Positions 2,494 through 55,460 of a stretch of 64,000 bases of DNA are shown here, piece by piece. The DNA is from Leptotrichia sp. oral taxon 223 (lineage in GTDB: Bacteria; Fusobacteriota; Fusobacteriia; Fusobacteriales; Leptotrichiaceae). The DNA lies in NCBI RefSeq assembly GCF_013394795.1, contig NZ_JABXYU010000001.1, positions 1,736,001 to 1,800,000 of the forward strand, given 5' to 3'. The position numbers were made by a program, and so were the translations under genes. The notes below the pieces were generated by a model, which was given only the letters and a program-made list of their open reading frames with translations, was not told the DNA's origin and searched no databases. Positions within the stretch are counted from its first letter, which is position 1. Every line of letters starts with the position of its first letter.

Positions 2494-2907
2494 TTATTTT
2501 TTTTCTTCTTTAATATTTTGTACTAATTTTGCAAGAATTCCGTTTAAAAAGTCTTTTGTATCATTGTAGGAATATTTTTTTGCAATTTCAAGAACTTCAT
2601 TAATTGCTATTTCGTATCCTACATCTTTTATAGTGATTTCATAAAAAGATATTTTCAGCAAAACTTTTTCTATTGTTCCCAAACGCTCATAAGTCCAACC
2701 GTCCAGCACTTCCCGTATTCTTTCAATTAGAATATTCTGATTTTCAATTATTTCTGTAACATAACTTCTTAAAAAGTCAATTTCTTCATCTTTTTTTAAA
2801 TTTTCTTCACTAATTACATCATTTATTCTTTTGTCAATATTGTTGTCAATTAATTCGTATTCAAAAAGAAGTTTAAATATTTCTTCTCTAATTCCTCTTC
2901 GTGTCAT
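2494..2907 (-). CDS. nusB: Transcription antitermination factor NusB
   Basis: A 137-residue NusB, which with NusE (S10) binds boxA RNA and supports antitermination of rRNA operons. The all-helical protein starts with TRRGIREEIFKLLFEYE, matching the conserved arginine-rich N-terminus, and ends with the GILAKL helix typical of the family. Its start codon overlaps the stop codon of the upstream amaP-like gene by one base, so the two are translationally coupled. The order accB-accC-asp23-amaP-nusB resembles the acc-yqhY-nusB order known in Bacillus. Confidence 0.93.
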   Translation of the reverse strand: MTRRGIREEIFKLLFEYELIDNNIDKRINDVISEENLKKDEEIDFLRSYVTEIIENQNILIERIREVLDGWTYERLGTIEKVLLKISFYEITIKDVGYEIAINEVLEIAKKYSYNDTKDFLNGILAKLVQNIKEEKK

Positions 2908-3557
2908 TAGTTTTCCTTTCCAGATGGGGAAGTATCGTTTTGTGCATCATTTTCGTTTTTTAGATTTGTATTTTCGCCATTACTGTTTTCTTCCTTTTGA
3001 ACAGTTGGGGAATCAATGATTTTCTTTTCAATGATTGTTTCACCTAAAACTTTTTTCAATTTTACTTTACTTTTTTTTACGGTAATTCCAGTTGCCTGAA
3101 AAATGTAGTCAGATAATTTGTTTTGAATATCTGCCAATTTTTCATTTAGGTTATCGACGTTATAAGTGTCTACAGTGGCTTCTATGACGACAGCCTTTCC
3201 GCTTGGATATGACTTTACTTTTGAATTTTTTATAATTTCAAGCCCGCTTAAAAAGTCTTTTGATGTTTCATTTATTGTTTTGATGGAAACTTCAATTTCT
3301 CCATTTTTATTTTTAACTTTTCTATTTTGAGAATATTTTGTTAATTTATTAATGTATGAAAGTGAAAATATAACTAAATAGATAATTGATAATATTCCAA
3401 CCAGAATTTTAAAATTTAGGCTGTTTAAATCAACAAAACTGTCGAGCTGCCCTAAATAGTCAGTCCTAAACAGCATATCTGATACGCTTGAAAATGCAAT
3501 GCTAATAAATCCAAGTATAATAGATAATTTTGCCAAAAATCCTAATATTGCAATCAT
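2907..3557 (-). CDS. amaP: AmaP-like alkaline shock response membrane anchor
   Basis: A 216-residue protein with two N-terminal membrane segments (about residues 5-30 and 50-70), a cytosolic Asp23-like region (about 85-170) and a polar Asn/Glu-rich tail. This is the architecture of AmaP, which tethers Asp23 at the staphylococcal membrane. The asp23-like gene lies just upstream, separated by 160 bases that hold a large hairpin. The C-terminal tail (last 35 residues, rich in Asn, Glu and Ser) is low-complexity. The family call is good; the function in a diderm cell is inference. Confidence 0.78.
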   Translation of the reverse strand: MIAILGFLAKLSIILGFISIAFSSVSDMLFRTDYLGQLDSFVDLNSLNFKILVGILSIIYLVIFSLSYINKLTKYSQNRKVKNKNGEIEVSIKTINETSKDFLSGLEIIKNSKVKSYPSGKAVVIEATVDTYNVDNLNEKLADIQNKLSDYIFQATGITVKKSKVKLKKVLGETIIEKKIIDSPTVQKEENSNGENTNLKNENDAQNDTSPSGKEN

Positions 3558-3719: not shown

Positions 3720-4115
3720 TTATTCTTCAATTTCTGCTGTTTCTGCTACAGTTGCTGGAACAACTTCTTTTTTATCTTCTTTTACAATTTTTTGAATGTA
3801 GACATTAACTTCCTGAACCTTTAATCCTGTCATTTCAGTAATTGCCTTTACTACTCTTGTTTGAATTTCTCCAGCCAATGCAGGTAATTTGTATCCCATT
3901 TTTGCCACGATGTATAAATCTAGCGTGCATTCAGTTTCTCCAACTTCCACTTCAATCCCTTTTCCGCCTGAAGATACATTTTGGAAAAATTTGACAATTT
4001 CATTTTTAGAAGTTCCACCAACAAGGCTGTTTACTCCTTCGATTTCTGATACTACTGATTCTGCGATTGTTGCTACCACTTCCTGTGATATATTTACATT
4101 TCCTAATTCGTTCAT
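3720..4115 (-). CDS. asp23: Asp23/Gls24 family envelope stress protein
   Basis: A 131-residue Asp23/Gls24 (YqhY-like) protein. The family core is visible: an N-terminal ISQEVVATIAESVVSEIEGV helix-strand segment, a central VEVGETECTLDLYIVAKMG strand pair, and the C-terminal VNVYIQKIV strand. YqhY in Bacillus lies beside accB-accC and influences acetyl-CoA carboxylase, which fits its position here 100 bases after accC. A strong AGGAGG lies before the ATG. It probably works with the AmaP-like protein encoded next. Confidence 0.88.
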   Translation of the reverse strand: MNELGNVNISQEVVATIAESVVSEIEGVNSLVGGTSKNEIVKFFQNVSSGGKGIEVEVGETECTLDLYIVAKMGYKLPALAGEIQTRVVKAITEMTGLKVQEVNVYIQKIVKEDKKEVVPATVAETAEIEE

Positions 4116-4214: not shown

Positions 4215-5570
4215 TTACTTGCCAAGCGCTTCTTTAAAATGTGTTTCAATAAAGTTTGTATAGATAGTTCCATTCTTAAAGTCCTGATTATCAAGCACCT
4301 TCAAGTGAAATGGTATAGTTGTGTCAACACCTTCTATAATAAATTCCTTTAAGGCGCGTTTCATTCTTGTGATAGCTTCTTCCCTGTTTTTGCCTTTTAC
4401 AATAAGTTTTGCTATCATTGAGTCATAATAAGGCGGGATTTCATAGTTCTGATAAGAATGTGAGTCGATTCTTACTCCAATCCCTCCAGATGGAATGTAT
4501 TTTTCCAGTATTCCAGACGAGGGCAGGAATCCATTTTCAGAATCTTCTGCGTTAATTCTGCATTCTATTACGTGTCCATTAATATTTATATCTTTTTGAG
4601 AAACACTTAATTTTTCTCCTGCGGCTACTCTTATCTGCTCTTTTATCAGGTCAACTCCAGTGATTTCCTCGCTTACTGTATGTTCCACCTGAATTCTTGT
4701 ATTCATTTCCATAAAATAAAAGTTCATGTTTTTATCAACTAGAAATTCCAATGTTCCAACGCTGTCGTAACCGATGCCTTTTGCCAGTTTTGCGGCGAAT
4801 TTTCCCATTTTTTCACGTGTCTTGGCATCAATTCCCGCTGATGGCGATTCCTCTATTAATTTTTGATGCCGTCTTTGAATGGAGCAGTCTCTTTCACCTA
4901 AATGAACCACATTTCCAAATTTATCTCCAACAACTTGTATTTCCACGTGCCTTGGTTCTTCCACATACTTTTCAATATAGACATCTGGATTTCCGAATGC
5001 CGCCTTTGCTTCATTTTGCGCAGCGATGTAATTTTCCACAAGTTCCTTTTCATCGTGGGCGATTCTCATTCCTTTACCGCCGCCGCCGGCAGTGGCTTTT
5101 ATCATAACTGGATAAGTTATCCATTCTGCAACTTTTTTAGCTTCTTCCACATTTGGCACAATTCCGTCTGAACCTTTCGTTATAGGAACTTTATGCTTGA
5201 TGGCAGTTTCCCTTGCTGTTGCCTTATCTCCCATCATATTGATTAATTCAGGTTTTGGGCCAATAAAGACAATCTCGTTTTTGTCACATATTTCAGCAAA
5301 TCTTTGATTTTCTGCCAAAAATCCGTATCCAGGGTGAATGGCTTCACTTCCTGTCATTTGTGCCGCCGAAATAATATTGGGTATTTTTAAGTATGAGTCC
5401 GCACTGCTGGCAGTTCCGATACAGATAGCCTCATCAGCCAGTTTTACGTGAAGTGATTCCTTGTCAGCTTCTGAATAGACTGCAACAGTCGCTATTCCCA
5501 GCTCTCTCGCTGCTCTGATTATCCTAACAGCGATTTCTCCTCTGTTTGCTATTAATATTTTTTTGAACAT
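4215..5570 (-). CDS. accC: Acetyl-CoA carboxylase, biotin carboxylase subunit
   Basis: A 451-residue biotin carboxylase, the ATP-dependent enzyme that carboxylates biotin on the carrier protein in the first step of malonyl-CoA synthesis. The ATP-grasp core shows the glycine loop GGGGKGM (162-168). The EMNTRIQVEH segment (288-297) contains the catalytic Arg292 and Glu296, and the basic QKLIEE segment lies near residue 238. Length and motifs are normal. It lies 120 bases downstream of accB in the same operon. Its intact active site contrasts with the missing biotinyl-lysine in the accB product. Confidence 0.96.
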   Translation of the reverse strand: MFKKILIANRGEIAVRIIRAARELGIATVAVYSEADKESLHVKLADEAICIGTASSADSYLKIPNIISAAQMTGSEAIHPGYGFLAENQRFAEICDKNEIVFIGPKPELINMMGDKATARETAIKHKVPITKGSDGIVPNVEEAKKVAEWITYPVMIKATAGGGGKGMRIAHDEKELVENYIAAQNEAKAAFGNPDVYIEKYVEEPRHVEIQVVGDKFGNVVHLGERDCSIQRRHQKLIEESPSAGIDAKTREKMGKFAAKLAKGIGYDSVGTLEFLVDKNMNFYFMEMNTRIQVEHTVSEEITGVDLIKEQIRVAAGEKLSVSQKDININGHVIECRINAEDSENGFLPSSGILEKYIPSGGIGVRIDSHSYQNYEIPPYYDSMIAKLIVKGKNREEAITRMKRALKEFIIEGVDTTIPFHLKVLDNQDFKNGTIYTNFIETHFKEALGK

Positions 5571-5690: not shown

Positions 5691-6092
5691 TTATACTTCA
5701 ATTTTAAATAATTCCTTTGCAAAATCCACAGCTGAACCGTCTGCAACAAGAATTTCTGTTAAAATGCCGTTTACAGTCGATTTTATCTCGTTATCGATTC
5801 CCATTGTGTTAATCTTTGCAAGAATTTGCCCTTTTTTTACAACTGTTCCTGTTTTTGAGCTTAGTAACTTTATTTTACCTACATTGCGTGATTTTATGAT
5901 TTCTTCTACTGGTAATGCGGGTTTTGTAACTTTTTTTTCTTCTTTTTTTGCTGCCGGTGCCAGATTATTTACAGTATTTACTGTTTCAGAATTTGTTAAT
6001 GTAAGTTTTACTTTTCCATATCTTACTTTAATTTCTGCTAAATCTTCCTTTTTTAGAACTTGCATTAATTCCTGGATATCCTTAAGTTCCAT
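5691..6092 (-). CDS. accB: AccB-like carrier protein lacking the biotin-attachment lysine
   Basis: A 133-residue protein with the layout of BCCP: an N-terminal helix typical of AccB (ELKDIQELMQVLKK), a Lys/Ala/Pro linker (about 45-65) and a C-terminal biotinyl-type barrel (about 70-133). In the barrel hairpin, where BCCPs read AMKMMNEI, this protein reads TMGIDNEI: Gly98 replaces the lysine that receives biotin. The codon is GGA (complement of 5801-5799), and the reading frame is intact on both sides, so this is not a frameshift effect. The thumb segment after the first barrel strand is also shorter than in E. coli. Position before accC says AccB; its biotinylation is doubtful. Confidence 0.85.
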   Translation of the reverse strand: MELKDIQELMQVLKKEDLAEIKVRYGKVKLTLTNSETVNTVNNLAPAAKKEEKKVTKPALPVEEIIKSRNVGKIKLLSSKTGTVVKKGQILAKINTMGIDNEIKSTVNGILTEILVADGSAVDFAKELFKIEV

Positions 6093-8708: not shown

Positions 8709-10228
8709 TTATTTTCTTCGATAATTAAGTGCCTCCAATAAATGCTCCTTTTTTATGTTTTTTTCCCCATCCAGATCTGCTATCGTTCTGGATACTTTCA
8801 ATATTTTGTCAAACACTCTGACTGACAATTTTAAATTATCAATGGCAGATTTCATAATTTCTTCACTTTCTTCGTCTATTTTACAATATTTGTTCAGCTG
8901 CTTCTTGTTCATATCCCTGTTTAAGGTATTTGAATTAAAACGTTGTTTTTGAATTTCACGGGCTTTTATTACTCTTGCTTGAATATCTTTCGATTTTTCT
9001 GATAAAGTTTCGTCAAAAATTTCGTCTTTTTTCAACTGGTGCATTTCCACATACAAATCCATTCTGTCGAGAAGCGGGCCTGAAAATTTTTTCTGGTAAC
9101 GCTTTATTTCGTACAAACTGTCGTTGCATAATGGATTATCGGGGAAATAACCGCTTGGAGTAGGATTTGAAGCAGTTATTGTAATGTTTTTTACTGGATA
9201 AGTTACACTGAAATTTGCTCTTGAAATAACGATTTTTCCATCTTCCAGCGGCTGTCTTAACGTTTCCAGAGTTTTTCCCTCAAATTCCCCTATTTCATCT
9301 AGAAAGAAGACGCCGTTTAGTGCTAATGTAATTTCTCCGACTCTGTTTGCGCACCTACTAGAGCCACTTGTGTAGCTGAATAATGGGGTGCTCTAAACGG
9401 ACGCTTGCGGATTATTGGCTCATTTTGGCTTAACATTCCTGAAATGCTGTAAATTTTGGTTGTTTCAATTATTTCTTCTTCAGGCATATCAGGTAAAATT
9501 GTGTTAAATCTCTTGGCAAGCATTGACTTGCCTGAGCCAGGATCGCCTATTAAAAATACATTATGCCCGCCAGCTGCTGCAATTTCTAAAGCTCTTTTTG
9601 CAAGGAGCTGCCCTTTCACATCTGAAAAATCAATAGTTTCATCTAAATTTTCATCTTTTTCCAATTTTGAAGTATTCTTTTCAATAGCTTTTTTACACAA
9701 TGTTTCCACATCAGTTTTTCCTTCCAGAAAATCCAGCAATTCCGTTATTTCATCAACAGGAATAATTTCCACGCCTGAAATTAGTTTTGCCTCATTATAA
9801 TTTCCCGCTGGAACGATAACGCCTTTAAAATCTGTTTCTTTTGCCAGAATTGTAGCATTTATTGCTCCATTTATTGATTTTATCTTTCCATTTAGGGAAA
9901 TTTCCCCTAAAATCAGATATTTTTTTAATATTTCTATATTTGAAATATGCCCTGTATTAGCAAGTATTCCTAAAAATATGCTCAAGTCAAAATGACTGCC
10001 TTTCTTTCTGATATTTGCAGGCGACAAATTCACCAGCACACGTCTGACAGGAAACTCAAATCCCACATTCTTAAAACAGCTCCTAATCCGTTCCTTGCTC
10101 TCGGAAATCGCTTGATCCCCCATTCCGACTATATTAAACACAGGCAGCCCTCTGGATAAATCAACTTCCACTTCCACAACATAAGTATCTACACCCATAT
10201 AGCTGCAACTAAATAAACTTATTGCCAT
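8709..10228 (-). pseudogene. comM: comM/YifB Mg-chelatase-like AAA+ helicase, split by a frameshift
   Basis: Two minus-strand frames together make a full ComM/YifB (about 506 residues). The first (10228-9323) has the N-terminal lon-protease-like region, Walker A GDPGSGKS at residues 228-235 and FRAPHYSATQVALVG. It then runs out of frame at about 9352 and stops after 301 residues. The other frame picks up at once with GANRVGEITLALNGV and FFLDEIGEF (Walker B), continuing to 8709. The family needs GGTGGCGCA where the sequence reads GGTGCGCA, so one G is missing. ComM is a branch-migration helicase that promotes natural transformation. Either a real recent inactivation or a sequence error; the downstream frame shows no other decay. 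Confidence 0.88.
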
Positions 10229-53529: not shown

Positions 53530-53626
53530 AAGGTATATAATTAGCAAAGTTATTTCTAATAGAAGTGAGGTATTATATAAAATATTGTAACATCTGTTAT
53601 TTAATTTTAAACACGAGGTGAATAAA

Positions 53627-54478
53627 ATGGGATTATTTTCAAGTAGAAAATCGAAAAATAAATATGTAACGCTAACATCTAAATCAAAATTGACAGTTGA
53701 TATTGTAGATGATAACAAGTGGAAAAAATGTAATCAATGTAACGAAATTATTTATAATGAGGATTTGAAAAACAATTTAAATATATGTCCAAAATGTGGG
53801 ACTTATTTTAGATTGACGGCATTTGAGAGGATTGAGCTTTTAATTGATGAAGGTACATTTATGGAGGAGGATATGACTCTTAATTCTAAAAATGTATTAA
53901 ATTTTCCTCAATATGAAGAAAAATTGGAAGTTGCACGTGAAAAAAGCAGAATGCTGGATGGGGTAATTAGCGGAACAGGGAAAATTAATGGAATAGAAGT
54001 GAGCATTGCGGCAATGGAGTTTAACTTTATGGGCGGAAGTATGGGTTCTGTTGTCGGCGAGAGAATTACGAGGGCTTTGGAACGGGGGCTTAAAAAGAAA
54101 ATACCAGTTGTAATTGTTTCTAGTTCTGGCGGTGCGAGAATGCAGGAAGGAATTTTGTCACTTATGCAAATGGCAAAAACTTCAGGAGCGGTAAAAAAAT
54201 TAAATGAAGCAAGAATACCGTTTATCTCGGTTCCAGTTGATCCTACTACTGGTGGAGTGACTGCCTCTTTTGCTATGCTTGGTGATGTAATTATAACAGA
54301 GCCGAATGCGCTGATTGCCTTTGCAGGGCCTAGAGTTATTGAGCAGACTGTAAATCAGAAGTTGCCAAAAGGGTTCCAGAGAGCAGAATTTTTATTGGAA
54401 CACGGAATGATTGACATAATTTCAGAAAGAAAAGATTTGAAGACAACAATTTATAGAGTATTGGAAAAATTGGTGTAA
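53627..54478 (+). CDS. accD: Acetyl-CoA carboxylase carboxyltransferase beta subunit
   Basis: A 283-residue AccD. The four-cysteine zinc ribbon (Cys35, Cys38, Cys54, Cys57) precedes the crotonase-fold domain with GGSMGSVVGERITRA and the oxyanion-hole region SSGGARMQEG. It transfers the carboxyl group from carboxybiotin to acetyl-CoA, together with AccA encoded 34 bases downstream. Start 53627 has GAGGTG six bases upstream. The subunit looks fully functional, which makes the missing biotin site of AccB stand out. Confidence 0.95.
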   Translation: MGLFSSRKSKNKYVTLTSKSKLTVDIVDDNKWKKCNQCNEIIYNEDLKNNLNICPKCGTYFRLTAFERIELLIDEGTFMEEDMTLNSKNVLNFPQYEEKLEVAREKSRMLDGVISGTGKINGIEVSIAAMEFNFMGGSMGSVVGERITRALERGLKKKIPVVIVSSSGGARMQEGILSLMQMAKTSGAVKKLNEARIPFISVPVDPTTGGVTASFAMLGDVIITEPNALIAFAGPRVIEQTVNQKLPKGFQRAEFLLEHGMIDIISERKDLKTTIYRVLEKLV

Positions 54479-54512: not shown

Positions 54513-55460
54513 ATGAGTATAAAAGATGAAATTAAGGAATTGGAAGATAATATAGCCGAGTTAAAAAGATTTTCAGCTGAAAGAAGTATTGATTTTTCTG
54601 CTCAAATAACGGAACTGGAAAAAAATTTGGAAAATAAATATAAAGATTTTGAAGAAAATGAAATGGATGCCTGGAACAGAATTCAAATTTCAAGAAATCC
54701 CAAAAGACCATACACTTTGGATTATATAAATGCATTGACACAGGATTTTGTGGAACTGCACGGGGACAGGCTCTCAAAAGATGACAATGCCATTGTAGGT
54801 GGACTTGCGACAATTGACGGATATAAGATAATGATAATTGGACAGCAGAAAGGAAGAGATATTGAGTCAAATATTTACAGAAACTTTGGCATGGCAAGCC
54901 CTGAAGGATATAGAAAGGCATTAAGGCTGATGAGAATGGCAGAGCGGTTTAAATTGCCAATTCTAACATTAATTGATACGGCTGGAGCATATCCTGGAAT
55001 AGAAGCCGAAGAAAAGGGACAAGGAGAAGCCATTGCTAAAAATCTGGCGGAAATGTTTGGATTCCGAGTGCCAATTGTAACAGTTGTAATTGGAGAAGGT
55101 GGAAGTGGAGGAGCCTTGGGAATCGGCGTGGCAGACTCAATTTTAATGCTTGAAAACAGCGTATATTCCGTTATTTCTCCAGAAGGATGCGCCTCAATCC
55201 TGTTTAACGACTCAACAAAAGCTGCAGAAGCGGCAAAAAGTCTGAAAATGGATGCAATCAGCCTAAAAAGCCTAGGAGTAGTAGATGACATTATAAAAGA
55301 GCCGTTAGGCGGAGCTCATAGAAACTTTGAAGAAACAGCCAAAAACCTGAAAGAAGCAGTTGTAAAAGAATTTCAGAGAATAGATAAATATTCACTTCGT
55401 GAACTGTTAAAGAGAAGATATGAAAAATATAGAAAAATGGGAGATTTCTTTGAGGAATAA
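54513..55460 (+). CDS. accA: Acetyl-CoA carboxylase carboxyltransferase alpha subunit
   Basis: A 315-residue AccA. The N-terminal helical part (residues 1-80) is followed by the crotonase-fold domain with NFGMASPEGYRKALRLM, DTAGAYPG and GEGGSGGALGIGV. It pairs with AccD to form the carboxyltransferase. Length is normal. Cotranscribed with accD and closed by a terminator at 55484. accD-accA is far from accB-accC in the same window (2.5-6.1 kb), so the enzyme comes from two operons. Confidence 0.96.
   Translation: MSIKDEIKELEDNIAELKRFSAERSIDFSAQITELEKNLENKYKDFEENEMDAWNRIQISRNPKRPYTLDYINALTQDFVELHGDRLSKDDNAIVGGLATIDGYKIMIIGQQKGRDIESNIYRNFGMASPEGYRKALRLMRMAERFKLPILTLIDTAGAYPGIEAEEKGQGEAIAKNLAEMFGFRVPIVTVVIGEGGSGGALGIGVADSILMLENSVYSVISPEGCASILFNDSTKAAEAAKSLKMDAISLKSLGVVDDIIKEPLGGAHRNFEETAKNLKEAVVKEFQRIDKYSLRELLKRRYEKYRKMGDFFEE

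Follow-up and report, generated by a model that had tools for sequence, protein, structure and literature searches.

To our knowledge, subunits of the BCCP type that lack the biotinyl lysine have been described only in plants. A different non-catalytic subunit, AccE (epsilon), holds together the biotin-dependent acyl-CoA carboxylases of actinobacteria; by the literature it resembles in this respect the role proposed below for a bacterial protein, and, compared by description, it differs in that it is not described as a BCCP homologue and belongs to a carboxylase type in which BC and BCCP are fused. The plant protein, BADC, is a BCCP paralogue without the AMKL motif that stands beside a biotinylated BCCP in the four-part acetyl-CoA carboxylase (ACC) of plastids, binds both biotin carboxylase (BC) and BCCP, and is credited with assembling or tuning the enzyme (PMC11926652, PMC12873504). 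In E. coli, four AccB are found per AccC dimer (PMC3896788). YqhY, encoded with accBC, is linked to the control of ACC in B. subtilis in the available passages of PMC5437119, which also mention an accBC-yqhY cluster in Fusobacteria and are silent on the lysine. An earlier description of a bacterial lysine-less BCCP was not found among open-licence papers, and BCCP domains were expressly left out of the analysis in PMC3199775.

The stretch analysed here, referred to as the window, comprises 64,000 nucleotides of the Leptotrichia sp. oral taxon 223 genome. Directly upstream of accC, as the first gene of its cluster, lies the gene for a lysine-less protein that we name AccB* (Table 1). As in AccB, the protein precedes accC-asp23-nusB and follows the plan of a BCCP, with an N-terminal helix and hairpin joined by a variable linker to a barrel of the biotinyl type. 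It matches Pfam Biotin_lipoyl (PF00364) at 40.3 bits, above the cut-off, its AF2-predicted barrel resembles BCCP domains (TM 0.87-0.92 on target), and the only noteworthy matches of a PDB sequence search were ordinary BCCPs and biotinyl/lipoyl domains related to them. Unlike AccB, it has a glycine in the hairpin (INTMGIDNEIKS), where Gly98 stands within INTMGIDNEI at the place of the lysine of AMK(M/L)MNE in BCCPs, and it coexists with a true AccB. The ACC-type thumb is also missing: compared with the genome's own lysine-bearing AccB, AccB* is 7 residues shorter there, and across the phylum the thumb is absent in Leptotrichiaceae and shortened elsewhere. Against the NCBIfam model for BCCP (TIGR00531), the protein of the window scores 46.7 bits, far below the cut-off of 115.2, and among the AccB* scores listed for the phylum none exceeded 65.8 bits (G092). 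Fold and homology thus place AccB* among BCCPs, whereas lysine, cut-off and thumb do not, and it is therefore not to be filed as AccB. The initial annotation had described a BCCP-like protein before accC with a glycine for the lysine at codon 98, a shortened thumb, and apparently intact AccC, AccD and AccA, a description with which all of these results agree.

Table 1. Features of the window that bear on AccB* and acetyl-CoA carboxylase.
Feature	Position in window	Strand	Remarks
nusB	2494..2907	-	end of conserved accB*-accC-asp23-amaP-nusB cluster
amaP-like gene	2907..3557	-	kept in cluster; name presumed, from synteny
Asp23/YqhY-family gene	3720..4115	-	in accC cluster
accC, biotin carboxylase	4215..5570	-	intact; TIGR00514 738 bits (cut-off 626.5)
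AccB*, lysine-less BCCP paralogue	5691..6092	-	133 aa
AccB* barrel	about 5694-5903	-	separated from N-terminal domain by linker
AccB* codon 98, GGA (Gly)	5799..5801	-	position of biotinyl lysine; 44/44 aligned, 81/81 loci read
AccB* N-terminal domain	5991-6092	-	
accD, carboxyltransferase beta	53618..54478	+	full-length ORF; four-Cys zinc motif visible in translation
accA, carboxyltransferase alpha	54513..55460	+	full-length ORF

Elsewhere in the window (about 9117-9322, minus strand), comM, a Mg-chelatase-like competence gene, is split by a frameshift; its N-terminal part ends at ...QTESEKLH in one frame and the gene resumes in another, through either mutation or sequencing error.

Among the 98 Fusobacteriota genomes sampled, 81 possess accC above the TIGR00514 cut-off, and in all 81 AccB* lies immediately upstream of it with glycine at the lysine position. 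These loci comprise 24 in Leptotrichiaceae, 31 further ones (L103-L136; Gly in 31/31) and 26 more (L351-L378; Gly in 26/26). Within the family, a full-length orthologue is present in 24 of 33 genomes, the other 23 being 45-91% identical to the protein of the window, and every one of the 24 carries the glycine, so that MKM is not what the close relatives have at this position. The same glycine in 81/81 genomes excludes the sequencing artefact that had been offered as one of three readings, and strain-specific loss is rejected with it. Of the 81 genomes, 79 yielded a true AccB of the TIGR00531 type (both exceptions are 82%-complete assemblies), and its lysine-bearing form next to folD recurs in the greater part of the phylum. 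Within Leptotrichiaceae, the presence of AccB* goes with that of accC and true AccB, and so does its absence (24 genomes with, 9 without; true AccB in 23 of the 24), although the nine genomes without the whole set may represent only few independent losses. Since AccB* occurs wherever accC does and is absent in the family where accC and accB are missing, its occurrence pattern is, as far as gene content tells, that of a stoichiometric AccC partner.

Several loci depart from the common arrangement. In two other Fusobacteriota families, the sole lysine-bearing BCCP of the AccB type forms the C-terminus of a carboxyltransferase (OadA-like) fusion of 609-612 aa (L281:3442-5271 in G095; G096:C94:1961-2419), and AccB* still precedes accC. 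G076 has, besides its own AccB*-accC, an extra lysine-bearing accB-accC pair (L357; G076:C2:1446430-1448238); the extra AccB groups with gammaproteobacterial AccB, and the pair, apparently acquired horizontally, serves as an internal control. The search also reported an in-frame TAA in the accC of a family member (G017:C1:1975697-1977028). The AccB* of G060 (L134:1931-2358) extends over two overlapping frames, a possible frameshift, and its barrel part keeps the glycine.

The genome of the window encodes a full AccB (G000:C1:1008563-1009024, 162 aa) that has both EAMKLMNE and a complete thumb. It is flanked by folD on one side and a hemolysin-like CBS gene on the other, and it scores 141.7 bits against TIGR00531, above the cut-off. 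Two birA genes are present as well. The absence of any other BCCP from the genome can be rejected, as four further genes with biotinyl/lipoyl domains accompany AccB*: the ACC-type AccB, one with pxpB/C-like genes (L003), a decarboxylase gamma and a lipoyl E2. A second accC lies beside a pxpA-like gene (L358:2609-3952; G000:C1:865611-866942); given the pxp-like neighbours of this accC and of the third BCCP, the pair probably serves another enzyme. The whole set, which resembles a biotin-dependent amidolyase/oxoprolinase, was observed in just four Leptotrichiaceae genomes. In most of the family accC is single and adjoins AccB*, and because many genomes have no other, the AccB*-linked AccC must serve ACC. 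With a separate full AccB, birA and mostly a single accC, ACC is therefore complete without biotin on AccB*, and in these bacteria it takes its biotin carriage from the remote AccB. Another BCCP serving the enzyme, with AccB* as a structural or regulatory paralogue, is consequently the reading of the initial annotation that is supported, and the new way of carboxyl transfer it had also considered is unnecessary given the full AccB.

Phylogenetic analysis placed the 44 sampled AccB* in one clade (100/99 support). Its deepest split lies at the class-level outgroup G097, which probably dates the origin of AccB* to a time before the sampled members of the phylum last shared an ancestor. Within the genus, dN/dS is 0.19 for AccB* and 0.16 for true AccB, which indicates purifying selection, and mean identity within the phylum is 40% for AccB* and 58% for AccB, so that AccB* diverges faster. 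The reading frame is open in the AccB* loci read, one fused annotation (G060) aside, and neither relaxed selection nor the broken frame of a pseudogene was observed. Across the 44 sequences, the N-terminal domain is about as conserved as the barrel and the linker is poorly conserved. Gly72, Gly98 and Gly109 alone are invariant; the invariance of Gly98 means that the glycine has been fixed, beyond a mere loss of lysine. A lysine two residues past the glycine is present in 19/44 members and replaced by Asp/Glu in Leptotrichia, and the hairpin tip has no conserved lysine among the 44 aligned sequences. Compared with the initial annotation, what is new is that the trait is, from its distribution and phylogeny, phylum-wide and ancient, and that the lysine-bearing copy has a conserved place of its own, beside folD in most genomes.

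Outside the phylum, the gene before accC-asp23-nusB in Bacillota is an ordinary lysine-bearing AccB, so that the site of AccB* seems to be the one that accB occupied ancestrally. When 398 Bacillota, 146 Cyanobacteriota and 29 further genomes were searched with profiles, and about 100 matches read residue by residue, no lysine-less AccB was identified; with rare exceptions each genome gave a single full-length BCCP, and the lysine was present in every one read. From two Bacillota genomes with two AccB matches, three sequences were taken, all with the lysine. Many Bacillota matches are the C-terminus of frames of 610-700 aa. A further 80 loci came from a contig scan with EAMKLMNE, a sample biased to lysine-bearing AccB.

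Like BADC, AccB* is a BCCP paralogue without the biotinylation motif that coexists with a biotinylatable BCCP, and by analogy it probably works like BADC. It differs in being bacterial, clustered with accC and fixed for glycine, and its binding to BC and BCCP is putative; moreover, the reported plant interaction involves the BCCP thumb, and the binding of AccB* may differ. As none of the 146 Cyanobacteriota genomes yielded a lysine-less AccB, AccB* is probably independent of BADC, a convergent bacterial counterpart. Our impression that BADC also has glycine at the lysine place is given no evidential weight.

We consider it fairly probable that AccB* is a non-biotinylated BCCP paralogue acting as a fifth, non-catalytic subunit of ACC. 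It would sit in the AccC-AccB subcomplex by means of its BCCP N-terminal domain and barrel, and would probably take some of the BCCP places on AccC. The lysine-bearing AccB, encoded elsewhere, would carry biotin between AccC and AccDA, and AccB* would either aid the assembly of the AccC-AccB half or tune activity by the share of places that it fills, in the manner of BADC in plant plastids; we infer the binding to AccC, its stoichiometry and the effect on activity. In a published model (PMC10863985) the thumb faces BirA and touches it, and it may also cover active sites like a lid; its loss is consistent with a non-catalytic AccB*. The quicker divergence of AccB* is consistent with a looser role and counts against a fifth subunit. 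Only tentatively do we suggest that ACC is in Fusobacteriota a constitutive five-subunit enzyme, whose AccC core would need a mixture of biotinylated AccB and AccB* and whose activity would depend on the mixture, the solution embodied by BADC having been reached independently.

It appears unlikely that AccB* acts by competitive inhibition, driving true AccB off AccC and throttling the production of malonyl-CoA without any role in assembly, a proposal that overlaps in part with that of a fifth subunit. BADC was originally described as a negative regulator (PMC12873504), and the loss of lysine and thumb would produce a dead-end carrier. An Asp23/YqhY gene lies in the same cluster as well, and in B. 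subtilis its relative has been tied to inhibition of ACC (PMC5437119); the product of the cluster gene, an unrelated protein, adjoins AccB* there and shares with it the association with accBC and the implication in ACC control. That AccB* heads the accC cluster in every genome suggests, however, a stoichiometric partner, and for plants more recent work leans towards assembly rather than inhibition (PMC11926652).

Quite improbable, too, is a protein that mainly regulates expression of the accC operon through its BCCP-like N-terminal domain, biotin attachment having been lost as irrelevant. The N-terminal domain of AccB does autoregulate accBC transcription in E. coli (PMC3896788), and AccB* combines a conserved N-terminal domain with the first place in the cluster. 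Yet a barrel conserved like that domain, with a fixed hairpin glycine, exceeds the needs of an N-terminal domain acting on DNA or RNA; moreover, an Rfam search of the window returned zero known RNA elements, and its promoter and terminator signals included none above chance level.

Very little speaks for a relic in decay, left from an original accB beside accC and superseded by the folD-linked copy: AccB* does occupy the position at which Bacillota keep their lysine-bearing AccB, but it is intact in 81/81 genomes with an invariant glycine and a dN/dS of about 0.19, and the survival of a relic through the history of the phylum is not expected, so that this reading is already contradicted. Biotinylation or lipoylation at another residue, or an ACC that works without the biotinyl lysine, is equally hard to credit, since the lysine that 19 members have two past the glycine is Asp/Glu in Leptotrichia, a shifted site is rejected by the hairpin tip, the thumb that would face BirA is shortened or missing, and a full AccB is available.

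In all Fusobacteriota accC loci read, the gene at the usual place of accB is, judged by its coding sequence, unable to serve as the normal biotin carrier, and annotation and drug-target work in Fusobacteriota may for that reason target the wrong gene. A phylum-wide bacterial lysine-less BCCP in an accC cluster would point to places in the BC-BCCP half that do without biotin, and AccB* would offer a small, reconstitutable system in which to ask whether such subunits assemble or inhibit ACC.
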